From a virus, in the IMG/VR virus record IMGVR_UViG_3300021957_000026, positions 1 to 64,000 of that record: DNA of 64,000 nt; one strand, written 5' to 3'. The translations under genes were made by a program, and so were the position numbers. Below are positions 6,768 to 26,009 of the stretch, piece by piece (positions within the stretch are counted from its first letter, which is position 1; the number at the start of each line of letters is the position of its first letter). The notes under the pieces are model-generated. The model was not told where the DNA came from. It searched no databases and was given only the letters and a program-made list of their open reading frames with translations.

Positions 6768-9065
6768 TCAAGCTTTTTCTTTTATATCCGACAAGTTTAT
6801 CAATGATTGTCTCTCAAGCAGCTTGTCTGTAATAAATTTGTTGATTACAGACTCAATCTTTTCTTCCAAGATACTTAAAGACGATATTTTACTGCAAAAA
6901 TCTTTTATAAAATTAAATTTAAAATCTAGAGAAACACAGCTAGCAGAAAGAGAGTTCTTTATCTTATTCAATTTTTGCCACAAAACCCTCCTAATATCTT
7001 TCTCCGTCAACTTGTGAAGAAATAATTCACAATCAAAATATTGTTTTAACTCTGAGAAGACCACAGATTCAGGATCTTCCAAGTCTGAATTAAACCCCAT
7101 AGATTTCGACTCAACCAGAGAACTCGTCAAGAATATTTTGCAATTTGTAAAATCTGCTATATCGCCATTGCTCATCTGGATCTGACCTTCTTTAAATATC
7201 TGAGCGAACAAAGTCTTTGCTGATGCATGTACCTTGTGAAAATCATCTATAATAATTATACTATTAGGGTGTATATCAACCTTCTCGCACAAAGATGTAT
7301 TGTTATTCTTCTCTGAAGCTATCTTATAAGACGCCAATTCATCTGAAAAATGGACTCCGTTGTAAAACAATATATTAGCTCCACTTTTCTCTAAATCTTC
7401 TTTGAGTAAAGAGCAGAAAAAAGTCTTCCCTGTAGAAGATGCTCCACTTAGACAGTAAGTGCTTGGAGAAGAATTCTGCTTGTTGTTTAACTTAAAGTTA
7501 GAAATGAAAATCTCCTTTTCTAAATCTTTTATCATTTTCTTATGGCCAACAAAGGTCTTAGAAAGATTAGAGACGACATCTTCCAATATATTAGGTTTAC
7601 ATAAAGGATTCTCTTTCTTTGAATAAAAATCTTTTAAATGCTGAGTCGTTACTTCTGGAGCTGTATCAGACATCTTCTCAGACCAACTCTTTAACCTAGT
7701 ACTCATACAAGACATTAGATCTTGATAAACTCCTCCTGAAGAAATACTCGTTACGATTTCATCTTGGAGTTCTTTTATCTCTGGGTCTAAATCCCAATAA
7801 TTAACTTTAGATTGCGCCCCACAGTGATCTATAACATCTATAGCCTTATCTGGATAATACTTATTGGGAGTGTACTTCTCACAGTAGTCCATAACACTAT
7901 TTATAAATCCTTCTGAATATTCTACGCCATGAAAATCTTCATAATACTCTGTTATAGAAGGTAATATTTGCTTCATTTGAAACTTGGAGGGCTCCTTGAT
8001 AGTCACCCTTTCAAATCTACGGTCTAAAGCAGAATCTTTTTTAATTGTGTTTGTATATTCGTTTACAGTCGTCGCTCCAATACAACTGACTGTACCACGA
8101 GCCAATTCAGGTTTAAGGATGTTAGAAGCTTCAAGGGAATTTTCTGTAGTACCTCCCGCTCCGACTAACGTATGTATTTCATCTATAAAAATAATAATAT
8201 TATTATACTTTTTTACCTCGTTAACAAACTTCTCCAAACGCTCTTCAAATTGACCCCTATACTGAGTGCCTGCGACCATGCTAGACAAGCTCAGAGAATA
8301 AATAACTTTATTCGCTATTAACTCTGGGACTTCCCCGTTTACAATCTGAGAGGCTAAACCCTCAACAAGCGAAGTCTTACCTGTACCTGCTGGACCAACT
8401 AAAATAGCATTTGGCTTCTTCTTCCTACAGAGAATTGTAGCTATCTCAGAGATTTTATCGTCGAAATCGACTATTTTATCAAACTTTTTGTTTGCAGCTT
8501 TAATGTTTAAATTTTCAGAAAATTCAGCCAAGATCTTGTTTTCTTCAAACATATCTATTATATCATCTGGATAATCCACACTCTCTTCTTCAGCCCCTTC
8601 ATTTTCCAAGGAGAGATCAGAGTCTTTGATAAAAAGAGTAACATCTGTCACAATATCAGCCAAAATAGAATCAGACATTTCGGAGTCTAATTCTGCTATA
8701 CACTTAGGAGCAGTATCCCTGTTGAAGAAATTAAGCAGGAATATCTCTGGAGGGATATAGTCAAGATCATACACCTCGTAAGCAGTCTGCTCACAATTTT
8801 GAAAAAACTCCCTTACTTTAGGAGAATACCCCGAAGAACATTTTTTAGTCTTCTTTTTAGAATCGATAACTCTAGCAGAGTCATATCTAAGAATCTCAAT
8901 TAGACTATACTTTTCTAAAATTGAATCACAAGAAAGACTTGGGTTCGAAATAAAACTATGGAATAGAATGTCTAAGTCTAAATTATACCTATGAAGTTCC
9001 TCCGTAAGTGCTTTAGCATTCTCAATAACCCCCTTCATCCCCGCTGTAAATTTATACTCTGTCAT
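6768..9065 (-). CDS. Clp/Hsp100-type AAA+ ATPase with two ATPase domains
   Basis: The 765-residue protein has a diverged N domain (~1-180). The first AAA+ module has Walker A GPAGTGKT, Walker B IIFIDE, pore-loop-like region AGTQYRGQFEERL, sensor SCIGATTVNEY and arginine-finger segment DSALDRRFERV. These match ClpA/ClpB/ClpC D1. The second module has Walker A GASSTGKT and Walker B IIIIDDFHK. It lacks the GYVG pore loop, and the usual NRxD arginine-finger motif is replaced by sequence around QYFDCELFLHKL, so D2 is degenerate. No clear ClpP-docking IGF/IGL loop is visible. It overlaps the polymerase gene by 4 bases and may remodel replication or host protein complexes (inference). Confidence 0.85.
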   Translation of the reverse strand: MTEYKFTAGMKGVIENAKALTEELHRYNLDLDILFHSFISNPSLSCDSILEKYSLIEILRYDSARVIDSKKKTKKCSSGYSPKVREFFQNCEQTAYEVYDLDYIPPEIFLLNFFNRDTAPKCIAELDSEMSDSILADIVTDVTLFIKDSDLSLENEGAEEESVDYPDDIIDMFEENKILAEFSENLNIKAANKKFDKIVDFDDKISEIATILCRKKKPNAILVGPAGTGKTSLVEGLASQIVNGEVPELIANKVIYSLSLSSMVAGTQYRGQFEERLEKFVNEVKKYNNIIIFIDEIHTLVGAGGTTENSLEASNILKPELARGTVSCIGATTVNEYTNTIKKDSALDRRFERVTIKEPSKFQMKQILPSITEYYEDFHGVEYSEGFINSVMDYCEKYTPNKYYPDKAIDVIDHCGAQSKVNYWDLDPEIKELQDEIVTSISSGGVYQDLMSCMSTRLKSWSEKMSDTAPEVTTQHLKDFYSKKENPLCKPNILEDVVSNLSKTFVGHKKMIKDLEKEIFISNFKLNNKQNSSPSTYCLSGASSTGKTFFCSLLKEDLEKSGANILFYNGVHFSDELASYKIASEKNNNTSLCEKVDIHPNSIIIIDDFHKVHASAKTLFAQIFKEGQIQMSNGDIADFTNCKIFLTSSLVESKSMGFNSDLEDPESVVFSELKQYFDCELFLHKLTEKDIRRVLWQKLNKIKNSLSASCVSLDFKFNFIKDFCSKISSLSILEEKIESVINKFITDKLLERQSLINLSDIKEKA

Positions 9066-11623
9066 TTTCCTTTAGTATCCTTCAACTTCATTAAAACCTT
9101 TGTCTCTATAATCCTGATTGTATTCACGAAATGAGTAGAATCATTCTTAACGGCATTTAAAACTAAAATATCTTCTTTCTTTACTTTATTGTGCTCTAAA
9201 AAATTCGTAAGCTTCTCTTCCCTTCGATTGTCCATCAATAAAAACCTACAAGATGCAGTGTTATCGGAAGCTTCAATCAGCATATACTTATTCCCATTTT
9301 GAGAAGTCTTCGTGAAAAAATCTTTTACTTGGCAGACTGTTTTAAACAGAGTCTGATTAGATAATTCACCAATTTCTTTCAAAGACTGAACTTGCCCCCC
9401 CAAAGATTCGACGAAACAATCTCTTAGTTCATGAGAATAACTATAACCAAGCAAGCTGTTCTCATACCACCAGTCAGAAAATTTTTGATGTTTAATGTTC
9501 TCTTTGTACATCTCCCTGTACCTTGAGTATTTTTTCTTAAATGTCTCAAATCGACTCTGTTTCATGATGGGCCTGTTATCGTCACCCAAAGCTTGTGTCT
9601 CTACAACTTCTGAAATGGAGTTCAAGATATCAAACCCAAATCTTTCTCCCATCTTTACAAAATTTCTTTTTTCTCTATCAGTAAGCAAGTTAAATGATTG
9701 AGCTTCTAAAACTAGTCTACTTCTATCCTTATTGTCTTGGTCCATAGCCCCAGCTTGGATTAAAGCTGACAATATAGAAATATTAATTTTACATTCCTTA
9801 GCAGCTGTGAAAACCTCGTACTTATTGTTGAATTCCATGCCTCTGAAATCAACCAAGCTTTGCAGTGACTTTATGGAAATACCTTTGATGCTATTTAAGC
9901 CGTAACGAATATTCCCATCTTCGATCTTGAAGTTAATAGAAGATTTAAATAAACTAGGCGGTAAAAGCTTAACCCCAAAATCAGAAAGCTCTTCATTCAC
10001 TCCAGTAATAGTACCTAAAGGATCTGGCTCAAATTCAGAAGACTCAAGAACAGATAAGAAAAACTCTCTAGGATACTTGTATTTTAAATAAACTGTTTTC
10101 GCAGCCAAAGATGCGTAAGCAAAGCTGTGAGACTTATTAAAAGAGTAGTTCGCAGAAGCATCTAGAGCACTCCAATAAAAATCACTAATTTCAGAACTTA
10201 ACCCCAACCCCTCTGCAGCTTGATAAATCTTATCTTTCCAAGCTGGCATTTCATCAACCTTTTTCTTACCAACAATTCTACGAAGAACCTCTGCCTCCTC
10301 TAAAGTAAGCCCAAATACTTTATGAGCAATCTGCATTAATTGTTCTTGGTACAAAATAACATTCTTAGACCAAGAAAGAATCTCATCTAATTCTGGATGC
10401 AAGTTTAACTCTGTAGGCGAATACTTCTGTTGACAATAAGTATCTACAAATTGCAAAGCAGCAGGTCTACCTAAAGCCACAACATCAGAAAGCTCATCTA
10501 AATTTAATGGCTTAACTGTTTTGCATACTTGGAAGTTAGTATCCGCAGAGATTTGGAACAGGCCAACAGGATGATTAAAGTTTTGGAAGACCTCGTAAAC
10601 ATACTCGTCATTTGGATCGACATCTTCTATTGTGATTCCTATTTTTTCACAAGTTTTGTGAGCAATAGTCAAAGTACGAAGTCCCAAGATATCAAACTTA
10701 ACCATTAAGTCTGCTACATCGTTCATATCATAACCTGTAACTAAATCATCGTCTTTTGTCTTCTGAAGTGGGACCACATCTTGAATAGTTTGAGAACAGA
10801 TAGCGATACCTGAAGGATGCACTCCAGTATTCTTAATTAGATTTTCTATTTTTCTGGCGTTCTGATAAGTTACCGTGTTTTTCGAAGCCCATTGATCAAA
10901 CCTCTCGTTATCTTGCCTTGATTCCTCTAGAGAACATACCTTGCCATGTTGCTTGGGGATCATATCGCTGACTCTGTTAGCCTCGATCTCTTTAACAGCA
11001 TTGAAATATTTAGTAGCTTCCCTTATACAGAGTTTAGAAGAAAAAGTGTTAAAGGTTAAAATTTTTGCAGTCCTACCTTCATGCTTCTCTTCGATATATT
11101 CGATAACCTTTTGTCTTTTTTCGTAGCTGATATCTGTGTCAACATCTGGCAATAAACTCCCAACCAAGAACTCTTTACCTTTTAGATCCTTTACAGTCTT
11201 AGCTCGACTCTTAGATACAAATCTCTCAAAGAATAAACCATGAGGTATAGGATCAATATCTGTAACACCTAAAAGGTACAGCACAAGAGAACCTGCCGCA
11301 GATCCTCGACCAGCCCCTGTAGGGATATCGTTTTCATGGCAGTAATTTAAGATATCCCAGTTTAGTAAAATATAATCGGTAAACCCCAACTCCTCAAATG
11401 TTTCCAACTCCTGTTCCGCCCTCTCAAAGTAAACAGATTTATTAGGTTTTTTTACAAATCCTTTCTCTCGCAAAGCTCTTCTCGTAAGCTCATACATAAT
11501 CTCTTTTGTAGAGCTATCTGAATCTAAGCCTATAGAATCCAAAACTTTTTTATCAACCAGTGTCTTGGGGAGTTCTACCCCAGCTGGCTCACAATCATCG
11601 TAAGTGGTAAAATCTTCAAACAT
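9062..11623 (-). CDS. dnaE: DNA polymerase III alpha subunit, catalytic core (PHP domain encoded separately)
   Basis: This 853-residue protein begins where the linker after the PHP domain of DnaE would lie. It has GAGRGSAAGSLVLYLLGVTD (motif around 105-112), the catalytic pair in PDVDTD (D162, D164), NTGVHPSGIAI, the third catalytic aspartate in KFDILGLRTLT (D311) and YQEQLMQIAHKVFGLT. All three metal-binding aspartates are therefore present. The C-terminal ~120 residues look like the OB fold (VCQVKDFFTKTSQNGNKY). No PHP domain is present here; it is coded by 12224-12949 with an exonuclease gene between. The start ATG overlaps the exonuclease stop (TAATG), so translation is coupled. It replicates the phage genome. 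Confidence 0.92.
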   Translation of the reverse strand: MFEDFTTYDDCEPAGVELPKTLVDKKVLDSIGLDSDSSTKEIMYELTRRALREKGFVKKPNKSVYFERAEQELETFEELGFTDYILLNWDILNYCHENDIPTGAGRGSAAGSLVLYLLGVTDIDPIPHGLFFERFVSKSRAKTVKDLKGKEFLVGSLLPDVDTDISYEKRQKVIEYIEEKHEGRTAKILTFNTFSSKLCIREATKYFNAVKEIEANRVSDMIPKQHGKVCSLEESRQDNERFDQWASKNTVTYQNARKIENLIKNTGVHPSGIAICSQTIQDVVPLQKTKDDDLVTGYDMNDVADLMVKFDILGLRTLTIAHKTCEKIGITIEDVDPNDEYVYEVFQNFNHPVGLFQISADTNFQVCKTVKPLNLDELSDVVALGRPAALQFVDTYCQQKYSPTELNLHPELDEILSWSKNVILYQEQLMQIAHKVFGLTLEEAEVLRRIVGKKKVDEMPAWKDKIYQAAEGLGLSSEISDFYWSALDASANYSFNKSHSFAYASLAAKTVYLKYKYPREFFLSVLESSEFEPDPLGTITGVNEELSDFGVKLLPPSLFKSSINFKIEDGNIRYGLNSIKGISIKSLQSLVDFRGMEFNNKYEVFTAAKECKINISILSALIQAGAMDQDNKDRSRLVLEAQSFNLLTDREKRNFVKMGERFGFDILNSISEVVETQALGDDNRPIMKQSRFETFKKKYSRYREMYKENIKHQKFSDWWYENSLLGYSYSHELRDCFVESLGGQVQSLKEIGELSNQTLFKTVCQVKDFFTKTSQNGNKYMLIEASDNTASCRFLLMDNRREEKLTNFLEHNKVKKEDILVLNAVKNDSTHFVNTIRIIETKVLMKLKDTKGK

Positions 11624-12264
11624 TATAGTCCCATCGTTTTTTTAAGCTCAACAAAAACCTTGTAGCACATCTCAATATCGTACATGGCATTGTGTAATTT
11701 TTCCTCGTCGAAGTCAATCCCAAAGTATTTCAGAAGTTGATTCTGAGATACTCTAGACTTCAAGCTCCTGTCATGAATTATTTTGTATTGCCAACTAAGA
11801 AAGTTGTTTTTGGGCTTTCTTAATTCTTCTCTACATGCCTTACCTAAAGCACGAGTATCGTATATGCGATTAAGGTAAGAATAATCTGGAGTTTCCCCCA
11901 ACATTCTCTGCAATTCAGCTATCATATAAACATCAAATCCAAGTAGATTTTGCCCTATAACCTTGTATTGAGGATCGTACAAATATTTCTTAAAGTCACC
12001 CCATACTTTTCTAGGACTTTCTTTAACCTTATTATAATAATCCCAAGAAAAGCCTGTCAATTCTTCAATGTAAGGGGAAACCTCAAGGTTTTTAAAACTA
12101 ATATATCTATCATGTCTTTCTAGAACCCTGTTGCCTTCACAGACAATCCAAGCCAACTGCCAAGGTCTAGAAGAATGAAGATTTAATCCTTCTGTCTCCG
12201 TATCGAAGACAATATATTTTTGATTATACGGTAGCATCTTTATAAGACTCCCAACAGAATTCAT
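11623..12264 (-). CDS. DnaQ-like 3'-5' exonuclease (DEDDh)
   Basis: The product has 213 residues (204 if translation begins at the second ATG, 12237). Exo I is VFDTETEGLN (catalytic D and E), Exo II is GQNLLGFDVYMI, and Exo III is LHNAMYDIEMCYKVF with the H-x4-D of DEDDh nucleases. This is the proofreading family of Pol III epsilon. The gene starts within the last 41 bases of the PHP fragment and its stop overlaps the start of the polymerase core, so it is embedded in a split dnaE. The order PHP, exonuclease, polymerase resembles the domain order of PolC, although the polymerase itself is DnaE-like. It very likely proofreads for the split polymerase. Confidence 0.9.
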   Translation of the reverse strand: MNSVGSLIKMLPYNQKYIVFDTETEGLNLHSSRPWQLAWIVCEGNRVLERHDRYISFKNLEVSPYIEELTGFSWDYYNKVKESPRKVWGDFKKYLYDPQYKVIGQNLLGFDVYMIAELQRMLGETPDYSYLNRIYDTRALGKACREELRKPKNNFLSWQYKIIHDRSLKSRVSQNQLLKYFGIDFDEEKLHNAMYDIEMCYKVFVELKKTMGL

Positions 12265-12949
12265 CTGAACAGAAGTGATCTAAGTTAGGTTTGTGAAAAA
12301 CAGGCGATCTGCCACCAGAGCGATTACAAACAGCCTTGTACATTTGAAAAGCATGGAAGTCATCCTTGTTTTTGTAGAAAATACTTTTAGTCGGAATTGT
12401 CTTAATACCAGCTACACCACCATCTACAATAGTATTATCCAAATCTTCGATAGCTCTTTTTAATTGGAAATCAAACGGATGCTTGTTGTCCTCCGAGAAA
12501 TAAACATGGTCTAGATTATCTAGGTTTAAATGAGACATCCCAAAATGAAATAAATTATTATAAATATAAGAATCATAGAATGGGACTGCCACTTTAATAT
12601 CCAAGAAGTCTTCTTTAGTGTGATCCCCAAGTACCAGAGCTTTTTGAGTGCTAACATAAGCTTTCGTATAAAGATCTCTGATCTTCTTCATCCCCTTGTT
12701 ATTCTTCGCAAAGAAGATTAACTTACTAGGAACTTCGTCTGACTCGTCATTGATGACAGGAAGCCTAATGCCAAATATTAACTTAATACTTCTATCTCGA
12801 AAAGCCTCGTTAAACTTCCTAAAACCGTAGAAAGTGTCCTCGACCAAGACGACTTCTTTTAACGAATTTATCTCAGCGATATTTATAATATTGTCCAGCG
12901 TTAGGATAGACCTCCCTACGCTAAACTGGCTCTTAAACAGTGGGATCAC
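12224..12949 (-). CDS. DNA polymerase III alpha, separate PHP-domain fragment
   Basis: This 241-residue protein aligns by eye with the N-terminal PHP domain of DnaE: NIINIAEINSLKEVVLVEDT, then FRDRSIKLIFGIRLPV, later IKTIPTKSIFYKNKDDFHAF and a tail, FCSDEFCWESYKD, equal to the end of PHP. The usual first-strand HxHS metal-binding motif is replaced by FKSQFSVG, so catalytic PHP activity is probably lost and a structural role is likely. The start is GTG at 12949, nine bases after the upstream stop; no upstream ATG exists in frame. The missing C-terminal continuation begins in the gene at 11623. It presumably assembles with the core in trans. Confidence 0.8.
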   Translation of the reverse strand: MIPLFKSQFSVGRSILTLDNIINIAEINSLKEVVLVEDTFYGFRKFNEAFRDRSIKLIFGIRLPVINDESDEVPSKLIFFAKNNKGMKKIRDLYTKAYVSTQKALVLGDHTKEDFLDIKVAVPFYDSYIYNNLFHFGMSHLNLDNLDHVYFSEDNKHPFDFQLKRAIEDLDNTIVDGGVAGIKTIPTKSIFYKNKDDFHAFQMYKAVCNRSGGRSPVFHKPNLDHFCSDEFCWESYKDATV

Positions 12950-12958
12950 GCAATGATC

Positions 12959-14005
12959 TTAGAGAAGATCTTGATCCTTGTCAAATGAAAACGAAGGGCA
13001 TCCAGAATATTGCCTTTGCTCAACCTTAAATCCCTTCCCCTCTTCTTTCAAGACTTCTAGATCGCGCTTTGTATAAGAAGACTTTACATAATTGCCTTCT
13101 TTATCTACTAGCATAAAGTACTCAAAAGGAAACTTAAAAGGACAATGCCACATGAGATCCCCATTCTTTTTCAACTGCCCCACTCTGTCTGCTCTCCCGC
13201 AGACTATCTTGCCAGCAAAGCCATCTTCTTTTTTAGGATAACCCTTATCCCAAGCCAACCCACTTTTAGCTGTATGTTCGCTAAAGTTGTTTATAACTTG
13301 CTGGATCTCTGTTAAGAAATACTCAAACCCCTCTAGGTCAACATCGTCTAAACGCTCCATCTCCAAAAGACCCTCCCCCTTTAGGTCAAACTTCAAAAAC
13401 AAAAATTCCATCTGGCGCTTTAAATATTCTGGATAGAGATACTTTATCGCGAGACAGTACATAAAGTCTTGCATATTATCTGTATACTCCTTCCCCTCGA
13501 AGATACTCTTGGAGGTTTTAAAGTCACGGATAACAGCAGTCTTCTTTTTCTTAAAGAGAAAGAGCTTATCGATGAATCCTAATATTCGATAATTCTTACC
13601 TTCTTCATTTACAGAGATATCAAAGTCCTTCTCAGAAATACCTTCCGTAGGCTTGCCATTTTCATCTCCAAAAAAATCAAAATTTAAACCCTCAACTGTC
13701 ATCTTGTTGATCAAGTCCATATTTTCGAAATCCGAAATCTCGTACTTACTTGCGTACGCTTCCACCATTCTCTTAATCGGAGGGCTAACATTAATGTCCT
13801 GAGCTTTAATGATAGCCTTGTAGTGTTTCCTGTGCCTTGGATTCCCTAAGTTCTCGAAAATCGCATGACAGATTGTCCCTCTAAGAGAACCGTGATTGGA
13901 CTTGTCAGGTAACCTTAAATGATACTTAGCCCAGTATTGCCAAGTACAAGTTTGTAGTGTCTTTATCCTAGACGCTGATAATGGCTTATTGACTGTCTCA
14001 GGCAT
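12959..14005 (-). CDS. PD-(D/E)XK exonuclease, RecB/Cas4-like
   Basis: I start at the ATG at 14005 (MPETVNKPLSASRIK), which overlaps the primase stop by 8 bases; an in-frame upstream start lies inside the primase. The 348-residue product has the N-terminal LSASRIKTLQTCTWQYWAKY and GSLRGTICHAIFE (motif Q/H region). A nuclease core follows with LGFIDKLFLF, then VIRDFKTSK (the D-x-K of the PD-(D/E)XK motif) and MQDFMYCLAIKYLYP. C-terminal cysteines near GKIVCG and WHCPF, with the early Cys, could form the iron-sulphur cluster seen in AddB/Cas4-type nucleases, but spacing is atypical. It sits in the replication operon and probably processes DNA ends for recombination. Confidence 0.8.
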   Translation of the reverse strand: MPETVNKPLSASRIKTLQTCTWQYWAKYHLRLPDKSNHGSLRGTICHAIFENLGNPRHRKHYKAIIKAQDINVSPPIKRMVEAYASKYEISDFENMDLINKMTVEGLNFDFFGDENGKPTEGISEKDFDISVNEEGKNYRILGFIDKLFLFKKKKTAVIRDFKTSKSIFEGKEYTDNMQDFMYCLAIKYLYPEYLKRQMEFLFLKFDLKGEGLLEMERLDDVDLEGFEYFLTEIQQVINNFSEHTAKSGLAWDKGYPKKEDGFAGKIVCGRADRVGQLKKNGDLMWHCPFKFPFEYFMLVDKEGNYVKSSYTKRDLEVLKEEGKGFKVEQRQYSGCPSFSFDKDQDLL

Positions 14006-15041
14006 AGTGAAATTTAAACTTCTTTTCAAACTTCTTGAGATTAGCAGCAAAAGATTTATTGACTCCTTTTGTATTCATCTCTTTAGCGAAATCCAAAACA
14101 CGGGACATGGAGTCCTCATGAGACATATTGTAGCTAAAATCAACATATTTTTCTATATTTAATTTACTCATTTCCCCAAAATCATTTTCTGGAGGCGGGG
14201 AAAAATAAATATTCTCAAAATCAATTATATCAATTAATTTAAATATAGATTTAATAGCTCCTTGAAAGCCCCTGTTTGAATCTGATTCGAAATCATTATT
14301 AAAGGCTAAATAGATTTTGTTTATTGGTAGGGAGTTTAGCTTTGAGATAAACTTCGGAGAGATGTTCAACCCAAAAGAAACGAGTACATTTTTCACACCC
14401 GCTTCGTACAATGAGATACAGTCACCGATAGATTCCACTATGTGAACAGAACCAGAATCTATGATAGCATCTTGTATATCCTGTATAGAGAAAAATGGAT
14501 AAAACCAATTAGAACACTTGCCCATATGCAGCCATTTAGGTCTTTTGTCGTCCGTAACTTTCCTTCCAGAAAATCCATGTATGCGACCGTCCTGTCTCAA
14601 TATGGGGAAGATTACCCTCTGGTACATTTTCCCAGACATAGCCAACCCACAGCGAAACTTCTTTAATGTCGATTCTGAGATCCCTCTATCAAGGTAGAAA
14701 TCATAATGAGGTAGCAATCTATTTAAAGACGATGTTGGATATGTTTTTTCTTCAGTCAAAAGATTTTTTTTAGGGATTCTGTGATTAATTGTTACACTAT
14801 CCTTCTTGATATAAGAAGAAATGACTCCTTTGTCATTTGTATTTAAAGTCTTTTGGATGAGAAGTTCAAAAGGAAGAAACATAGAGTCTTCCACGAAGTC
14901 CTTCCATACACCCGTATCCTTATAGATTTGAAGAGCGGTAGAATTATCCCCCGCCCTATAAACAGCGTTGGTACGCCAGTAAGACCCATGATCTTTAAGC
15001 CTATAACCTAGATCTTCAAGGATTTCTCTATAATCAATCAT
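13998..15041 (-). CDS. DNA primase (TOPRIM, DnaG-like)
   Basis: This 347-residue protein has YLDRGISESTLKKFRCGL, IFPILRQDGRIHGFSGR and the TOPRIM motifs VESIGDCISLYEAGVKNVL (catalytic Glu) and YLAFNNDFESDSNRG (D-x-D-like pair, here with N-D). The zinc-binding domain typical of DnaG is short: an N-terminal region with GVWKDF resembles its C-terminal part, but no clear CHC2 cysteines are visible. The helicase-binding C-terminal domain is short. It overlaps dnaB upstream by 8 bases and the nuclease gene downstream. It would synthesise primers for lagging-strand replication. One acidic TOPRIM position reads N rather than D, which is common in phage primases. Confidence 0.85.
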   Translation of the reverse strand: MIDYREILEDLGYRLKDHGSYWRTNAVYRAGDNSTALQIYKDTGVWKDFVEDSMFLPFELLIQKTLNTNDKGVISSYIKKDSVTINHRIPKKNLLTEEKTYPTSSLNRLLPHYDFYLDRGISESTLKKFRCGLAMSGKMYQRVIFPILRQDGRIHGFSGRKVTDDKRPKWLHMGKCSNWFYPFFSIQDIQDAIIDSGSVHIVESIGDCISLYEAGVKNVLVSFGLNISPKFISKLNSLPINKIYLAFNNDFESDSNRGFQGAIKSIFKLIDIIDFENIYFSPPPENDFGEMSKLNIEKYVDFSYNMSHEDSMSRVLDFAKEMNTKGVNKSFAANLKKFEKKFKFHYA

Positions 15042-16578
15042 TCCTCAATAGGACTGGAATAGAATCAACTGGCCCACCTGACTCAACATTAACATCAATA
15101 TTATTCATCGAATCAACCACATCCTGTAGATCACCCCTCTCTGTTATTCTAAAGTTCTGCATATGCAGGTTTATGAAATTAGACCTGTTTGTACCATCTG
15201 GCATTTGAACTGGATTTATAGCCCTCAAAGCATCCCTACCCAAATGCCTCGCCTTTAGGTTTACTAACTTATGCGTTCCGAAAGACTCTCCTTCTTCATG
15301 GATTTCTTCTGCAACTTTCTTTCTCAATAAAAACAAGTGAGAACAAAATTGAGTAATACCATCTGACAACGAAACAACACTTTCGTCATCTACTATGTTA
15401 TTAGCTTGGCGATTGTTTGTGATGCCAAGTCGATTAGATTGAACAGAAGTCAACATTGAAACACATGGCTTCCCATCAAAAGAGAGATCCCTATGGATAG
15501 TCTGCTTAAACTTATGAACCATATAGGATACCTGTTGCCAACCATCTCCTTTACCCATATTCCCAAAATCACTCTTGATATAATCAAAGCTAAATATCAA
15601 TGGGTTACCTCGACCTATCTTAGAGTAATAGAACCTTTTAAGAAGAGAGCACATTTCATCTGGGGACATCCCAGCTACATTCTCATAATAAAACTTAAGA
15701 TTTTTTATCTTACCCCAAGCAGAACGAACTTTCTTTACAACCTCTTCGGCTGACCACTCTTGATAACTAGAAGTTCTCCATTTGCCAGTCTGAAGTAACC
15801 AGACTGGAATACCAGTCATAGAAGAACACTGTCGAAAAATAAGTTCCTCCTCGCTCATTTCTCCGTTGTCAAAGTGAAGAACAGGAACGTCATACTTTGC
15901 CGAAGTCCTTGTGGAGTAGTCCATGCAAAATTGTGTTTTACCTACCCCAGAGCGAGCTACTACAACTGAAATATTACCCGCCAGTAAAAGAGATCCATAC
16001 ATTTCATTGACCCTTTGATGTGGGCCAAGCATTCCAAACTCAGTTATAGGGTTATTACCCCGCTCCTCTACCACTTCCTCCATCATTTCGAAAAGGTTTA
16101 GAGGGCCAGAGTCAGACATCTCAAAATCATTGATGCTGTCGTTGTACATCTGATCAGCCTTCTCGACTATATCAGTGTACTTCAAACTAGGGTCTGCTTT
16201 TTTAACAAAAGAAGCCACATCCTTACATGAATTATAAATCTCCCTCCTAGCAGTGAATTTCTTCAACTCTTTCACAGAAGCTAAGAACACCTCTTCAGAT
16301 ATCTTGTAGAAAGCCAAAGAATAAACATATTCAGCAACATCAATACTATCTGGGAAGCTGACTTTCAATTGGATAATTCTTTGTATTAAAATTGTATCGT
16401 CTATAGTCTCCGCATTATCCAAAGCGTTTCTAATTAGCTTAAATATAGATATATTTACTTTAGAATCTTCGCTATAAAAATCATTCTCTTTTATAAAGAC
16501 AGAGATTTCTTCCCACTTATGAGGATGCTGAAGCAAACCACTTAAAGCTTTCTTTTCTAAGTCGTACGAAAAAATCAT
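15034..16578 (-). CDS. dnaB: Replicative DNA helicase, DnaB-like
   Basis: The 514-residue protein has the DnaB N-terminal domain (EKKALSGLLQHPHKWEEI) and the RecA-like ATPase core with Walker A ARSGVGKTQF, FDNGEMSEEEL (the H1a 'sLEMs' equivalent), FSFDYIKSDF (Walker B) and later LKARHLGRDALRA near the arginine finger. Length is usual for DnaB (about 470). It is followed with an 8-base overlap by the primase and preceded by a short hypothetical gene, the usual helicase-primase pair. It would unwind the replication fork. Confidence 0.9.
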   Translation of the reverse strand: MIFSYDLEKKALSGLLQHPHKWEEISVFIKENDFYSEDSKVNISIFKLIRNALDNAETIDDTILIQRIIQLKVSFPDSIDVAEYVYSLAFYKISEEVFLASVKELKKFTARREIYNSCKDVASFVKKADPSLKYTDIVEKADQMYNDSINDFEMSDSGPLNLFEMMEEVVEERGNNPITEFGMLGPHQRVNEMYGSLLLAGNISVVVARSGVGKTQFCMDYSTRTSAKYDVPVLHFDNGEMSEEELIFRQCSSMTGIPVWLLQTGKWRTSSYQEWSAEEVVKKVRSAWGKIKNLKFYYENVAGMSPDEMCSLLKRFYYSKIGRGNPLIFSFDYIKSDFGNMGKGDGWQQVSYMVHKFKQTIHRDLSFDGKPCVSMLTSVQSNRLGITNNRQANNIVDDESVVSLSDGITQFCSHLFLLRKKVAEEIHEEGESFGTHKLVNLKARHLGRDALRAINPVQMPDGTNRSNFINLHMQNFRITERGDLQDVVDSMNNIDVNVESGGPVDSIPVLLRND

Positions 16579-18758: not shown

Positions 18759-18786
18759 ATGCTATAGAAAAATGTAGATAAGTCAA
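18759..18786 (-). promoter_or_regulatory. Candidate sigma-70-type promoter of the replication operon
   Basis: Reading leftward, TTGACT (18781-18786) is followed by a 16-base spacer and TAGCAT (18759-18764), then AGTCATT and the ATG at 18751. The -10 lies seven bases from the start codon, so transcription would begin at or next to ATG. The element overlaps the end of gmd by a few bases. Confidence 0.5.
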
Positions 18787-19811
18787 GACAAATCATTCAT
18801 AACCATTTTCCTCACAAGTCCATTAAAATCTGTTTTTGGTTCCCACTTAAGTAACCTACGAGCATCCGAGGAATCACCCAAGAGAATTTCTACTTCAGCT
18901 GGCCTATAAAATTCTGGATTAATCCTCATTAACGTCCGACCTTCATGTACATACTTCTCATCCACGCCTTCCCCAACCCACTCGCACTTCTCTACAGCGA
19001 AGCCAGCGAAATTAAACGCTTGTTCTACGAATTCTCTAATCGTATGGGTTTCATTAGAAGAGAGGATATACTCTCTAGGCTCTTCTTGATTTAACATTAA
19101 CCAAACACCTTCTACAAAATCTTCAGCATCACTCCAATCCCTTTTTGCATCAATATTACCTAACTCTAGAGGTTTAAAATCATTTAAAATGTACTCATTT
19201 TTGATACGAGCCACATTCTTGGTGATCTTACGGGTGACAAACTCTTCTCCGCGACGAGTTCCTTCGTGGTTAAATAACCACCCTTGTATTGCGAACAAAT
19301 TATAAGAGTCTCTCCACACCTTTACCATATGCCTAGCACTAGCCTTAGACACCCCATAGGGGCTTCTTGGACGTAAAGGATGAAGCTCTGACTGAGGGAA
19401 ACATATAACGTCTCCAAACTCCTCTGAAGAGCCTGCATTGTAATATCTACATGTAGGGCAATGCTTGCGGATTGCTTCAAGCTGGTACAGCACAGCCATA
19501 GCATTTGTCTCCATATGGTTAACTGGCATCTTCCAACTTACCCCAACAAAAGAGTTAGCAGCAAAATTAATAAAATAATCGGGTTTATGCTCTGCTATAA
19601 CCAGCTCTGTATTAGCTTGATCAGCGACATCTAAGTCGATGAGTTTAAATCGAGGATTGTCTAGTAGATGAGCAATATTATCGTGGTTTTTAACACTCAA
19701 TCTGCGAACACCAGCTACAACAGTATGCTCAGTATTCTCCAAAAGATAATCCGCCATAAAGCTTCCATCTTGACCTGTCACACCAGTGATGATTACTTTT
19801 TTAATATTCAT
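18783..19811 (-). CDS. gmd: GDP-mannose 4,6-dehydratase
   Basis: This 342-residue short-chain dehydrogenase has the nucleotide-binding motif GVTGQDGSFMADYLL (residues 10-24), NFAANSFVGVSWKMP, the active-site segment SSEEFGDV and SPYGVSKASARHMV (catalytic Y-x-x-x-K). GWLFNHEGTRRGEEFVTRKI is diagnostic of Gmd. The enzyme converts GDP-mannose to GDP-4-keto-6-deoxymannose, the precursor of GDP-rhamnose, GDP-fucose and GDP-perosamine. A downstream reductase (RmlD- or FucS-like) is not visible in the window. Length is usual. It is the last gene of the sugar cassette and overlaps the HAD gene upstream by 4 bases. Confidence 0.93.
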   Translation of the reverse strand: MNIKKVIITGVTGQDGSFMADYLLENTEHTVVAGVRRLSVKNHDNIAHLLDNPRFKLIDLDVADQANTELVIAEHKPDYFINFAANSFVGVSWKMPVNHMETNAMAVLYQLEAIRKHCPTCRYYNAGSSEEFGDVICFPQSELHPLRPRSPYGVSKASARHMVKVWRDSYNLFAIQGWLFNHEGTRRGEEFVTRKITKNVARIKNEYILNDFKPLELGNIDAKRDWSDAEDFVEGVWLMLNQEEPREYILSSNETHTIREFVEQAFNFAGFAVEKCEWVGEGVDEKYVHEGRTLMRINPEFYRPAEVEILLGDSSDARRLLKWEPKTDFNGLVRKMVMNDLS

Positions 19812-20101
19812 TCAAAGAAATCTTCTGAATTTATGTTCTTATCGTCAACAAAAAGATCATAAATCGGCTTACCAAACTTTAGGTCATGGTACTTGACTTT
19901 AAATCTTTCGAATTGTTTTTTCGTCACATCAGACCAATCCTTGCCGCTTCCAGTCCCCCTAGCAGTCCAATAAATTATAGTATTACCTTCGTCATATAAT
20001 TTATTTATTTTTTCTATCCTGTCGTACATCGGTTGACTATTTTCATAGTCCATGTTCTGAGTCATAAGAATAGTTTCATCTATATCAACGTAAATAGTCA
20101 T
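19808..20101 (-). CDS. HAD-superfamily phosphatase (capsule/sugar-type)
   Basis: This small 97-residue HAD protein has motif I YVDIDETIL (D-x-D-x-T), motif II NTIIYWTARG (conserved Thr) and motif III LFVDDKNIN (Asp-Asp). There is no cap domain insert. This compact form matches capsule-biosynthesis phosphatases that sit with nucleotide-sugar genes; the substrate cannot be read from sequence. Overlaps of 4 bases on both sides place it firmly in the cassette between neuA and gmd. Confidence 0.78.
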   Translation of the reverse strand: MTIYVDIDETILMTQNMDYENSQPMYDRIEKINKLYDEGNTIIYWTARGTGSGKDWSDVTKKQFERFKVKYHDLKFGKPIYDLFVDDKNINSEDFFE

Positions 20102-20778
20102 TTATTTTTATATAAAAGTTCAGCTACTTTAAATTGCCATTCATAATCGATATCAAAGCATTCCAACTCGTCAATAGGATGAAGACTTATGCCACCTTCC
20201 TTTTGGAAATCACCCATAAACTTATTTTTAGAAATAAGGTCCATTCTTGATGCATACAAAACATGAGCTGCTTTATATGTTATATCAACAGCTTTTGTAT
20301 TCATAATTGTCTGATCAATAGGCCAAGGAGTTATCAACTTGCCTTTATCATTCCAAAAATAATCTTTTTGTTCTATAACTCCAAATAAATTTTCAGACTC
20401 TTGCCACAAAAATTTTTCAATAAAATCGTCTATAGTCTCTATACTCAACAGAGGAGAACACAAGTTTACTTTAACTACGTATTTGTACGGGAGCTTGTCA
20501 TGCCATTCGTAGATCTTCTGCAATGAATTGTCATTATTAGCAGACTCGGCACTTCTTTTAAAAATATTAACTGCATGAGAGTTTGCTATTTTAATTAACT
20601 CTTCTTCACAAACAGAAGCAAAAATATTTTCTTTAGGAATAATCCTCGACTCAGTTAATTTTTTTAACCCAATATCAAAAAGACTAGAACCTGCAAAGGG
20701 TCTTATCATTTTTCGAGGGACTCTTTCAGAATTAAGTCGAGCTTGAGCTATTATAGCTACATCTTTTATATTTTTCAT
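20098..20778 (-). CDS. neuA: CMP-nonulosonate (acylneuraminate) cytidylyltransferase
   Basis: The 226-residue protein has the N-terminal nucleotide-binding motif AIIAQARLNSERVPRKMI (the IIPARxGSKxxPxKN equivalent), VKVNLCSPLLSIETIDDFI (conserved substrate-proximal strand) and a C-terminal ELECFDIDYEWQFKVAELL, typical of NeuA/PseF. It activates a nonulosonic acid (sialic acid or an analogue) with CTP. The partner NeuB lies four genes upstream. Which nonulosonate is made cannot be told from these sequences. It overlaps its neighbours by 4 bases. Confidence 0.85.
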   Translation of the reverse strand: MKNIKDVAIIAQARLNSERVPRKMIRPFAGSSLFDIGLKKLTESRIIPKENIFASVCEEELIKIANSHAVNIFKRSAESANNDNSLQKIYEWHDKLPYKYVVKVNLCSPLLSIETIDDFIEKFLWQESENLFGVIEQKDYFWNDKGKLITPWPIDQTIMNTKAVDITYKAAHVLYASRMDLISKNKFMGDFQKEGGISLHPIDELECFDIDYEWQFKVAELLYKNK

Positions 20779-21473
20779 TTCTTTTTAAGAATTGCTAACA
20801 AGCAAGGTTTTTGACACCCATCTTCTGAAATACTCAGTACTTCAAAATATTCTTCAAATACTTCCGCTAAAGAATCTTCAGAAAAATAATGAAAATGTCC
20901 ATCCCAAATTTTATTCGGAGGATGAATTATTCTGTTAATTGGAACCTCCAAAATAAGGAGATTAGAACAAACTTTAGAACATTTTTCAACGAAAGCCCGC
21001 AGGTGTTTTATGTGTTCTAAAACATGCCAGCATGTAACGACATCATAAGTCCTATCAAAATCTAAGGAGCAAAAATCTCCTTCGTAAACTTTAAATTTAT
21101 TTTTCTTTAGGTGATTTATGCAAATAGAACTTATTTCTTGACACTCAATATCAAAACCAGAAGACCTTAATTTTAAAGCAAACGTGCCTCCTCCAGAACC
21201 TATGTCTAGGACGCTACCCTTTTTACAGAACTCTTGTAATATATCTAATCTTCCATTGCATATATTATTTCTTTTTTTATGAAAAAATTCTGTTATCTCT
21301 CCATCTAAAATCTCAGATTCAGATCTTGTCCCATGAGAATTAGTTCTATATTCACTCTTATGATATTTTAAAGTATCTCCTAAAAAATTAACGTAAATAT
21401 GTTTGCAGCTAGGGCATTTGTAAATATCCTCCCCAATAACAGAATAATTACTTCCGCAAATGCAACAATTCAT
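20775..21473 (-). CDS. SAM-dependent methyltransferase with N-terminal zinc ribbon
   Basis: This 232-residue protein starts with a zinc ribbon (CCICGS, then CPSCKH) and has a class I methyltransferase core: motif I VLDIGSGGGTFALKL, YDVVTCWHVLEHIKH and a later HFHYFSEDSL. The combination is typical of methyltransferases in sugar cassettes that act on nucleotide-linked or lipid-linked glycans. It is flanked by neuA and a pyruvyl-transferase-like gene with 4-base overlaps. The substrate is unknown. Confidence 0.82.
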   Translation of the reverse strand: MNCCICGSNYSVIGEDIYKCPSCKHIYVNFLGDTLKYHKSEYRTNSHGTRSESEILDGEITEFFHKKRNNICNGRLDILQEFCKKGSVLDIGSGGGTFALKLRSSGFDIECQEISSICINHLKKNKFKVYEGDFCSLDFDRTYDVVTCWHVLEHIKHLRAFVEKCSKVCSNLLILEVPINRIIHPPNKIWDGHFHYFSEDSLAEVFEEYFEVLSISEDGCQKPCLLAILKKK

Positions 21474-22516
21474 AATTTTGAAATACAGGTTTGAATGGCT
21501 TTTGAAAATTTTGCTTTTGATTTTTTCATGTACACTTCCCTAATTCTATTCCAATTATTTATATAATCAGCATCCGAAGTTATTTTTATATACATATTAT
21601 TTAACTTCTCTTTCAAAAAATCATCTTTAGTTTCCAACATGTAATCCTCAAATCCGTTTAAAATACAATAATCCCTGACTTTTGGCTGACTACTTAGCGA
21701 TATACAAGGTACTCCTATTGCAGTAGCCAATATTTGACCATGACCCCTCATAACAATTGCAGACTTAACCCTATTGTAAATAGAAATTGAGTCTATTACA
21801 TTATCATAATCACAAAATTTCGATATGAATTCATTATCTCTAGGGACAACATAATCAAAAATTGCAGGCATCAAATCTTTAGGGGTATGAGGTAAAACCT
21901 TTAACTTATTTTCAAGAACCCAATGAGTCAAAAAGACATCACTATTATTGGGATACCTATTTGCATTAATTATAGTGCTCGCATTTGTAGCTGGTTGGAA
22001 TACACAAGATATATCTTTATCTTTATCCTCTACAATATCAGAAATAATAAACCCAGAATCTGGCAACGATTCTATACCTAAATCAACTAAGTCTTGTACT
22101 TGCTGTGCAGACCCATCATCTCGCAAAGAAAAATACGAACTCCTTTCTATCAAGCAGCTCAACTGATCCTTAAAGTTACTATTGATTTTAGTATGACCAT
22201 CAAAAAGATTAATTCCAATAGACATGAAAAATACAGGACAATCAATTTGATCAAAAATTTTATCTGTAAATGGGAGTTTACAACCACTAAAACCTGAATC
22301 GGGTTCTAGTAACCCCCCGCCACCAACAACAATAAAATCAAAATCACATTCTTTAAAAAAAAATAATGCCTCTTCCTCTTTCTTAAATTGATTAAAATTA
22401 CAACTTAGCCAGTTTATTTCTCCCAGCTCTTCCTCAAAAGAACTCCTAACATTATGAAGGGCTATATTGTCTCCTATATTGATGTTATAAGAGCCTATAT
22501 GTAAGACGTTCTTCAT
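21470..22516 (-). CDS. Polysaccharide pyruvyl transferase-family protein
   Basis: This 348-residue protein has HIGSYNINIGDNIALHNV at the N-terminus, then DFIVVGGGGLLEPDSGF, FFMSIGINLFDG, SYFSLRDDGSAQQV and AIVMRGHGQILATAIGVPCI. This succession (GxxNxGD, GGGGL, S-x-RDxxS, RxHG) is the hallmark of the CsaB/PssM/WcaK-type pyruvyl transferase family, which adds ketal pyruvate to polysaccharides from phosphoenolpyruvate. It ends with a 4-base overlap on the methyltransferase gene. Similar proteins also occur in sialic acid loci. The acceptor is unknown. Confidence 0.78.
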   Translation of the reverse strand: MKNVLHIGSYNINIGDNIALHNVRSSFEEELGEINWLSCNFNQFKKEEEALFFFKECDFDFIVVGGGGLLEPDSGFSGCKLPFTDKIFDQIDCPVFFMSIGINLFDGHTKINSNFKDQLSCLIERSSYFSLRDDGSAQQVQDLVDLGIESLPDSGFIISDIVEDKDKDISCVFQPATNASTIINANRYPNNSDVFLTHWVLENKLKVLPHTPKDLMPAIFDYVVPRDNEFISKFCDYDNVIDSISIYNRVKSAIVMRGHGQILATAIGVPCISLSSQPKVRDYCILNGFEDYMLETKDDFLKEKLNNMYIKITSDADYINNWNRIREVYMKKSKAKFSKAIQTCISKL

Positions 22517-22522
22517 TTTAGT

Positions 22523-23230
22523 TTAAACTGGATGATAATTATTTTTATATCCCAAGTTCTTAAACACAGTGTCGGGGAATTTTTTTTGAATATATTGCCA
22601 AAAAATCTTGTATTGATTAAAATACATTTCGTTATTATACCCGCTCGGCAAAAGGTTTTTATTTTTTTCGAAGGCATGATCTCCTTTTTTTATATACTTA
22701 GGTCCATCTAAGCCTACAAATCCTATCTCAGGAGCGCCACAGAAAGCAGCCATTATTATCTGCCTCACACAAATTCCAAGCTTGCCATAGAAGTTGCTAT
22801 GAAAAACCATATAGTTTTCATAATTATTAAATTTGTAACCCTGCCATTTATGATGGATCTCAAGGCAAACTATAGGATTGTATCGCCGAGTATAATCTAG
22901 AAACTTAGAGTCCTCAATATCTAACTCACCAGCTATAGAAGTTAGATCTACTTTTGTTTTATCAAGATTGTCGTTTAAAAAGAAATGATTGCATGACCAA
23001 ATAGAATCATAGTTATGATTAGAGAAATCAAACTCTCTAGTAGATGGTCCACCTCCTACAATTAGAATCTTTTTACCCTGAAAACTATCTAGAAGTGTAT
23101 TCCGTGTACAAAAAACGTCTTCATTTACAAATGAATCTTCTAACAGATTATCTGGAAACATATGCCTAGAAATAGAAGTAGCCCAAGTAGAAAATGGGAT
23201 ACTACGTTTTTCATTTTCGAAAGGACTCAT
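22523..23230 (-). CDS. Sialyltransferase-like (GT42/DUF115-type) protein
   Basis: This 235-residue protein has KILIVGGGPSTREFDFS (residues 53-70), IWSCNHFFLND (78-87), a helix GKLGICVRQIIMAAFCGAPE and FVGLDGPKY followed by GDHAF (His 185). The same layout (GxGPSLxEIDY, xCNxFxFED, GVxxxxxAxxxG, SGxDFY, and a Y/F-A-F) is found in Campylobacter-type GT42 sialyltransferases such as CstII. It is also shared with the DUF115/Maf glycosyltransferases. Its place between neuB and the neuA/pyruvyl-transferase block favours transfer of a nonulosonic acid. It overlaps neuB by 4 bases. Family choice is inference, not proven. Confidence 0.55.
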   Translation of the reverse strand: MSPFENEKRSIPFSTWATSISRHMFPDNLLEDSFVNEDVFCTRNTLLDSFQGKKILIVGGGPSTREFDFSNHNYDSIWSCNHFFLNDNLDKTKVDLTSIAGELDIEDSKFLDYTRRYNPIVCLEIHHKWQGYKFNNYENYMVFHSNFYGKLGICVRQIIMAAFCGAPEIGFVGLDGPKYIKKGDHAFEKNKNLLPSGYNNEMYFNQYKIFWQYIQKKFPDTVFKNLGYKNNYHPV

Positions 23231-24057
23231 TTTCGAAGTTTCTTCCTAACTTCTTTCTCTGTCTCTGTAACACAGATAGAACCATCCCCATAGGATTTTT
23301 CTAACTCCCTTATTCCACTGACAAGCTTAAACAATCCTTGAGGCTCTACTGAAGCCATATGATCAGATCCCCACATAGTTCTATCTAAAGTCACATGCCT
23401 CTCAATGATTGTAGCCCCCAAATAAACAGCAGCAACAGTGGTACCAAGCCTAAACTCATGCCCACTATAACCGACTTCACAATTATATTTATTCTTTAAT
23501 GTTTTAACACAGGATAGATTTAACTCTTCTATTGGAGCGGGGTAAGAAGAATTACAATGTAGAACAGCGTAATCAGAGGCTTCACTATCAAGAATCCCAA
23601 CAGCAACATCTATTTCTTCTTCAGAACTCATTCCAGTAGAAATTATAATTTTCTTACCAGTCTTGCAAGCCTTTCTCAAAAGATCTAAATCAGTGATACT
23701 AGCAGAAGCAATTTTAATAAATGGAATGTCGTACTGATCTAGGAAATCAAGACTATCCAAGTCCCAAGGAGAAGCACTCCAAGAAATTCCCTTCTCTTTA
23801 CAGTAACGATCTATCTCATCGTACTCTTCTTTTTCAAATTCAACCTTGTATTTGTAATCAAGATAAGTCATTTCTCCCCAAGGAGTGTCCCTCATAACTG
23901 ATTTCTGATGCTCTGGTACGCAGACTTCTGGGTTACGTTTTTGGAACTTAACTGCATCACAACCAGCAGCCGCAGATATGTCTATAAGACGTTTTGCGAT
24001 ATCCAAATCTCCATTATGATTGATTCCGATTTCTGATATTATATATGTTTTTTTCAT
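23227..24057 (-). CDS. neuB: N-acetylneuraminate (nonulosonate) synthase
   Basis: The 276-residue protein has the TIM-barrel motifs ISEIGINHNGDLDIAKRLID, DAVKFQKRNPE, PFIKIASASITDLDLLR, IIISTGMSSEEEID, VLHCNSSYPAPIEELNL, VGYSGHEFRLGTTVAAVYLG and IIERHVTLDR. These match NeuB-type synthases that condense phosphoenolpyruvate with a 6-carbon amino sugar. At 276 residues it stops after the barrel and lacks the C-terminal SAF (antifreeze-like) domain that closes the active site in cellular NeuB (~345). A short SAF-less form is notable. It lies with neuA and the transferase-like genes; no neuC is visible, so the amino-sugar substrate would come from the host. Confidence 0.9.
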   Translation of the reverse strand: MKKTYIISEIGINHNGDLDIAKRLIDISAAAGCDAVKFQKRNPEVCVPEHQKSVMRDTPWGEMTYLDYKYKVEFEKEEYDEIDRYCKEKGISWSASPWDLDSLDFLDQYDIPFIKIASASITDLDLLRKACKTGKKIIISTGMSSEEEIDVAVGILDSEASDYAVLHCNSSYPAPIEELNLSCVKTLKNKYNCEVGYSGHEFRLGTTVAAVYLGATIIERHVTLDRTMWGSDHMASVEPQGLFKLVSGIRELEKSYGDGSICVTETEKEVRKKLRK

Positions 24058-25503: not shown

Positions 25504-25929
25504 TTACTTGACTTGGATCATTATATCTTTTTGGACTTCTTTTTCAAGAGGTATTTTTATCCTCAATAGGCCATTTTTGTATTCCGCCTCAATAGAATCT
25601 TTATCGACGCTCTGATGCAAGGTGAATTTCTTCTTTACAGGTCGTCGAGATATTTTTCTATGGTAAAATTCAGCCTCATTTTCTTTTAGCTCCGATCCTG
25701 CCTCAACCTTTAAGGTCTGGCCAGATACAGATACAGATACATCTTCTTGATCTAACCCCACTAGTGCAAACTCAAGAATAAAATTATCATCTTTATCTTG
25801 ATAAGCATCATAAGGCTCAGAGCCTGAGTACAATGGAGTATTAGCTCGGTGAGCTAACGACTGCATACGCTTGAATACATCTCCCTCAAAAGCTAAGGGA
25901 GCCAACATTTTGTTTATCATCATTGTCAT
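25504..25929 (-). CDS. Small heat-shock protein (Hsp20 / alpha-crystallin)
   Basis: I choose the ATG at 25929 (MTMMINKM), although a GTG at 25968 is also in frame. The product (~141 residues) has the alpha-crystallin domain: EPYDAYQDKDDNFILEFAL, VGLDQEDVSVSVSGQTLKV, YHRKISRRPVKKKFTLH and YKNGLLRIKIPLEKE, with the C-terminal IMIQV tail near the usual IxI/V motif. Hsp20 proteins hold unfolding proteins as ATP-independent chaperones; phage copies are known in marine T4-like phages, with a suggested role in capsid or scaffold folding. It is a single gene between nrdA and the cassette, with its own terminator. Confidence 0.88.
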   Translation of the reverse strand: MTMMINKMLAPLAFEGDVFKRMQSLAHRANTPLYSGSEPYDAYQDKDDNFILEFALVGLDQEDVSVSVSGQTLKVEAGSELKENEAEFYHRKISRRPVKKKFTLHQSVDKDSIEAEYKNGLLRIKIPLEKEVQKDIMIQVK

Positions 25930-26009
25930 ACTACTATTTTTAGTTAGTTTTTGTTTTTCTAGCCCCACTTTGGGTACTGGAAATTCTCAGACAATAGAGA
26001 TATACTAAA

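Follow-up and report, generated by a model that had tools for sequence, protein, structure and literature searches.

Separate genes for the PHP domain, proofreading exonuclease and core of a DnaE-type DNA polymerase in a clade of uncultured phages

In one clade of phages, the PHP domain, the proofreading exonuclease and the core of a DnaE-type polymerase are kept together as separate proteins. The PHP protein corresponds to the N-terminal domain of a DnaE, detached from its chain, and the core to the remainder of that DnaE as far as the OB fold. The locus probably specifies a three-chain replicase of the Pol III type, which would have been split once from one DnaE and whose assembly we infer.

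Layout of the replication locus

The window, the whole stretch of DNA analysed here (64,000 nucleotides), is a 64-kb part of a 64,073-base virus record that also codes for tail, terminase, RNR and UvsX-like genes. The three genes singled out in the preliminary description are complete minus-strand ORFs where it had placed them, and they belong to a minus-strand cassette that runs from helicase to ATPase (sequence was read directly at the overlaps):

15034..16578, minus strand: DnaB-like replicative helicase (PF03796, PF00772; PHROG_19)
13998..15041, minus strand: DnaG-type primase (DNAG_N, Toprim)
12959..14050, minus strand: PD-(D/E)XK nuclease (PF12705, 6e-15), a neighbour in many relatives
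12224..12949, minus strand: PHP subunit, a stand-alone, catalytically degenerate PHP domain of DnaE (241 aa, GTG start)
12224..12237, minus strand: overlap of PHP stop and exonuclease start, 14 nt
11623..12237, minus strand: DEDDh 3'-5' proofreading exonuclease (204 aa, without C-terminal tail)
11623..11623, minus strand: overlap of exonuclease stop and core start, 1 nt (TAATG)
9062..11623, minus strand: DnaE-type polymerase core with palm/thumb/fingers, HhH and OB, without PHP (ATG start, 853 aa)
6768..9065, minus strand: ClpA/B-like double AAA+ ATPase (PHROG_4871, 9e-106; PF00004, PF17871, PF07724), with an ATGA overlap with the core

The overlaps that had been noticed on both sides of the exonuclease gene thus measure 14 nt with PHP and 1 nt with the core. 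At the former, the exonuclease frame opens with an ATG at 12237 and contains the PHP stop TAA (12226-12224); near relatives have the same -14 spacing, and the overlap would point to coupled translation. The list of ORFs starts the exonuclease at an upstream ATG at 12264, which would give 213 aa; because four relatives (L002, L003, L005 and L015) have a stop in this frame before the second ATG, the upstream start is probably unused and the likely protein has 204 aa.

The ClpA/B-like ATPase follows the polymerase in nearly all relatives. The window also holds an Hsp20 gene (25504-25968), and the two may possibly act as paired phage chaperones linked to the replication cassette. A sugar module of the nonulosonic-acid type, with methyltransferases, occupies 18783-24057:

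18783-19811: epimerase
20098-20778: cytidylyltransferase
21470-22516: polysaccharide pyruvyl transferase
23227-24057: NeuB

The PHP subunit

By sequence, profile and predicted fold, the PHP protein is a homologue of the DnaE PHP domain. It matches Pfam PF02811 (E = 3e-8); in PHROG_405, a phage DnaE family, columns 50-292 correspond to the PHP protein and columns 331-1082 to the core; and profile–profile comparison (hhalign) of PHP from 24 relatives with 55 bacterial DnaEs gave E 7e-14. A single-chain AlphaFold model (mean pLDDT 78, pTM 0.80) was used for a Foldseek search, in which DnaE PHP domains took all of the top 15 places among PDB hits (2hnh, E 3e-10), ahead of any other PHP protein. 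The profile score and the fold search therefore bear out the homology on which the preliminary description had staked its reading. In the profile alignment, PHP residues 1-241 fall on DnaE 3-244 and core residues 1-853 on DnaE 246-1075; in the global alignment, expressed in the DnaE frame, the PHP chain ends at column 244 and the core begins at column 246. Local anchors around the junction are separated by 44 residues in the split pair versus 45 in intact DnaE, confirming that the end of the one chain and the start of the other correspond to adjacent positions in DnaE. Since the two chains are collinear with intact DnaE, the break lies between PHP and palm, with nothing substantial missing.

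Active PHP exonucleases have nine metal ligands, HHDHEH(C/H)DH (PMC12926913). With these positions mapped via Taq and L199 alignments, eight of the nine are replaced in all 24 aligned relatives (by L/I, K, T/S/N/A, R/K, K, P, S/T and Y/F/L) and only D38 is kept; the PHP subunit does not have the ligand set of an active PHP exonuclease, and the HxH(S) motif is absent, as had been stated. K6, R62 and K76 lie at former ligand positions and K188 lies beside one, all of them invariant or nearly so; judged from the alignment, basic residues in the old metal cleft suggest a new anion or nucleic-acid contact. Bacterial PHP domains that have lost their metal ligands occur alongside a separate exonuclease (PMC3666897), and the combination of a lost site and a separate exonuclease found here agrees with that pattern. 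The inactive PHP of E. coli Pol III is still stabilising, the whole enzyme unfolding cooperatively with it, and conservation of PHP among bacterial replicases is strict (PMC3666897).

Polymerase core and exonuclease

The assignment of the polymerase to the DnaE type stands: compared with known structures, the core matches DnaE with E 1e-115 and PolC with E 1e-9. Its Pfam matches are DNA_pol3_alpha (PF07733, 8e-62), the finger domain (PF17657, 7e-33) and HHH_6 (PF14579, 1e-15), and its predicted fold retrieves 7pu7 (E 3e-39). An OB domain is identified by its strands in the model and by hits to OB folds, so that the tandem HhH and OB are both present. The catalytic residues D160, D162 and D311 align with Taq D463, D465 and D618 and are invariant in 23 sequences. 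The core ends at DnaE column 1075 of 1156, which leaves no room for a tau-binding C-terminal domain (CTD), and a pattern search of the aligned relatives revealed no conserved clamp-binding motif; both features vary among bacterial DnaEs, and membership of the DnaE type is not thereby excluded. Of the ~40 window ORFs compared with family libraries, none was recognised as a sliding clamp.

The exonuclease matches RNase_T (PF00929, E 4e-16), and all 21 members of its set match PHROG_192, 'DNA polymerase exonuclease subunit'. Comparison with DnaQ (8h18, E 1e-7) places it among the DnaQ/epsilon-like DEDDh enzymes, and its catalytic residues D12, E14, D102, H182 and D187 are invariant in 21 sequences; the intactness of the polymerase aspartates and exonuclease motifs, first seen in the window, thereby extends to 23 and 21 sequences, respectively. 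The C-terminus lies ~20 residues past the motif III His/Asp, and the protein has no epsilon-like clamp- or PHP-binding tail; it is not an epsilon of the E. coli type.

Distribution, gene order and selection

A single protein query returned 45 viral contigs at 48-80% identity, and those reaching far enough upstream show the same split. Profile searches of IMG/VR matched 558 core stretches (an upper figure, as the core pattern can also match ordinary DnaE) and 560 PHP stretches, and the best 80 of each were fetched. PHP and exonuclease occupy separate ORFs at 191 of the 195 fetched loci with split-clade cores, some of which come from the same contig; the remaining four either run off a contig end or are fragments. 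PHP shares a chain with the core, as in DnaE, in none of the 191 judgeable loci, and the clade loci fetched yielded neither a fusion of PHP, exonuclease and core nor an intermediate. In a quick tree with long outgroup branches, 68 dereplicated split cores form one clade (SH-aLRT 100) that excludes all fused bacterial and phage DnaEs; its stem is long (2.13 changes per column), so its origin among other DnaEs is unsure. Bins of the relatives name Flavobacteriaceae, Bacteriovorax, Verrucomicrobiales and others, too scattered for a host to be assigned.

When the same order was sought in other phages, PHP, exonuclease and core were contiguous in 139 judgeable loci, the commonest arrangement; 25 have genes between PHP and exonuclease, nine have genes between exonuclease and core, and eight are dispersed. 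Dispersed genes occur in L042, L077, L078 and L188, and in L042, L078 and L188 PHP or exonuclease is kilobases off, with both still present in the record; in these four loci the products must act in trans, meeting as proteins. Branches close to the base of each of the two main subclades often have PHP away from the exonuclease, and the contiguous order may therefore not be ancestral, nor can it be asserted that an inserted exonuclease gene is what divided DnaE. Insertions cluster in the gap between PHP and exonuclease, a hot spot where the inserts usually overlap the PHP end. Named by their sequence motifs, the gap inserts are SET-domain-like, IMPDH/GuaC-like and cupin-like genes, and homing-endonuclease-like genes are also among the inserts at the loci. 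The gap inserts located are:

L018:4815-5348
L028:435-974
L029:4219-5172
L034:4476-5348
L036:4942-5367
L045:3478-5339

Purifying selection is strong on all three genes. In the least saturated pair (L036/L040), dN/dS is 0.06 for PHP, 0.057 for the exonuclease and 0.038 for the core; other estimable values for PHP are 0.03-0.058, with high dS, and few values are usable, as most pairs are saturated. Conservation across the clade together with dN/dS of ~0.03-0.06 upholds the view that the split is functional rather than decay.

Some relatives have intein-like halves that interrupt the core gene between FNK and SH or, in L071, between GRG and S:

L156:8861-10110, core gene
L163:8859-9497, core gene
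L165:8859-10171, core gene
L196:7650-7894, core gene
L071:6381-6775

The halves lie in separate ORFs, well apart in L156, L163 and L165 and almost adjacent in L196, and by their sequence they look like naturally split inteins. The site between FNK and SH is presumably three residues from the cyanobacterial DnaE split intein site.

A probable three-chain replicase and its alternatives

In the reading that we favour, one ancestral DnaE gene would have been divided a single time, at the clade's base, with the break between PHP and palm. The gene for the exonuclease would have come between the two halves, and insertions and rearrangements would have parted the genes in some members, without fusion or loss. 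The PHP subunit would dock non-covalently on the core, at the ordinary position of PHP in DnaE, and stabilise it; it may also help to hold the exonuclease, which would proofread in trans, while the overlapping frames may help to keep production of the parts in step. As the exonuclease is without the PHP-binding tail of epsilon, its dock must differ or be absent; with the CTD also missing and the clamp apparently absent, the E. coli model is not transferable in detail. A bolder version, which we consider doubtful, would make PHP an exchangeable subunit whose basic patch binds exonuclease and core reversibly and controls proofreading or processivity, perhaps replacing the clamp.

Bacterial replicases keep PHP even without its nuclease, for reasons that are not settled. 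In a natural polymerase with PHP on a separate chain, the domain can be added, omitted or swapped, which makes the separate chain a natural test of the role of PHP in folding, DNA synthesis and proofreading. Moreover, a large uncultured phage lineage, with no close cultured relatives in INPHARED, carries its own Pol III-type replicase.

Alternatively, PHP could have taken a separate job, such as binding DNA, nucleotides or a host protein, leaving a core that works without it. The conserved basic residues at and beside the former ligand positions are a new feature that would fit such a change, as would the faster evolution of PHP relative to the core (dN) and its standing as the part most often separated from the others. 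Against this, the predicted fold is still specifically that of DnaE PHP and of no other PHP family, the protein still lines up with DnaE in length and at the junctions, PHP is retained at every locus where it is visible, and the domain is strictly conserved in bacterial replicases (PMC3666897); on balance we find a separate job unlikely.

The preliminary description also saw in the gene order a copy of the domain order of PolC, and perhaps a snapshot of how that order arises by gene insertion. On such a view the exonuclease would be entering between PHP and core as a step towards their fusion. The order does recall PolC and the frames overlap, but the PolC exonuclease is inserted inside the PHP domain (PMC3919608), whereas here it follows a complete PHP, and a copied order is not supported. 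The fused form is absent from the clade loci fetched, no intermediate was seen, several relatives have the three genes scattered or interrupted by others, and many members break the order. The N-terminal fusion of an exonuclease to PHP in some Bacteroidetes DnaE1 is a further, unrelated route (PMC3919608). A PolC in the making is thus very improbable, and we reject a relationship with PolC on the subfamily of the core, the placement of the exonuclease and the absence of fused forms.

Even less credible is that the chains are rejoined after transcription or translation (by intein, intron, ribosomal bypass or frameshift) into a normal DnaE. In favour of this, the core gene of some relatives seems to be interrupted by split inteins, and dnaE is broken internally in other phages, but no intein sequence is present at the PHP end or the core start in 23-24 aligned relatives, an entire exonuclease gene stands between PHP and core, and PHP is kilobases off in several relatives. 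A split made by an intein is rejected accordingly, the intein halves lying elsewhere, in the core genes of relatives. A gene found split on one metagenomic contig always invites suspicion. Recurrence of the same structure, with open frames, in ~190 fetched loci, together with strong purifying selection, nevertheless leads us to reject decay of the gene, a faulty assembly or a functionless remnant as having next to no probability.

Comparison with known systems

The three-gene arrangement found here matches none of the systems with which we compared it, and we found no paper on a PHP-exonuclease-core split in the open-access literature searched. Bacterial and cultured-phage DnaE relatives (~25-34% identity) are nearly all single ORFs of ~940-1430 aa, and in almost every cultured phage PHP is joined to the core. 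INPHARED holds no close cultured relative, only DnaEs at ~34% identity or less; within it the exonuclease had no match, and PHP gave two weak hits, both in Vibrio phages; one of these was read and proved to be a fused DnaE.

Two-part DnaEs are known from elsewhere. Cyanobacterial split DnaE is likewise encoded by two genes, but it is broken within the core and rejoined by protein splicing through a split intein. Cellulophaga phage phiST, Corynebacterium phage P1201 and Rossellomorea phage phiT1 also have DnaE in two ORFs, yet broken within the core (columns ~397 or 575-582) rather than at the PHP boundary. In phiST (NC_020842; L285:41632-45232) the two ORFs overlap by 8 nt, in a stretch without annotated genes, and the break falls just before the catalytic PDxDxD motif.

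PolC likewise brings together PHP, exonuclease and polymerase, but in a single chain of another polymerase subfamily, with the exonuclease within PHP. Pbunavirus (LBL3 ORF56/55) and Serratia phage Spe5P4 have the exonuclease directly upstream of dnaE and overlapping it, with PHP still fused to the core. The E. coli Pol III alpha subunit, or bacterial DnaE1, with epsilon (DnaQ) offers the same domains in the same linear order, and E. coli shares the inactive PHP and separate DEDDh exonuclease; it differs in keeping PHP in the polymerase chain, in having a CTD and clamp motif, and in the PHP-binding tail of epsilon. The E. coli exonuclease touches both PHP and thumb (PMC4703070). Finally, Microbacterium cluster EF phages (Krampusvirus), in which two alpha-subunit genes have been noted (PMC7302621, PMC13080520), have adjacent PHP and core genes, as here (Anakin gp56 and gp57, covering DnaE columns 4-274 and 300-853). 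They are distant within the family, and dispersal of the parts is not seen among them; the split between PHP and core is thus known in phages, but there without an exonuclease gene between the two.
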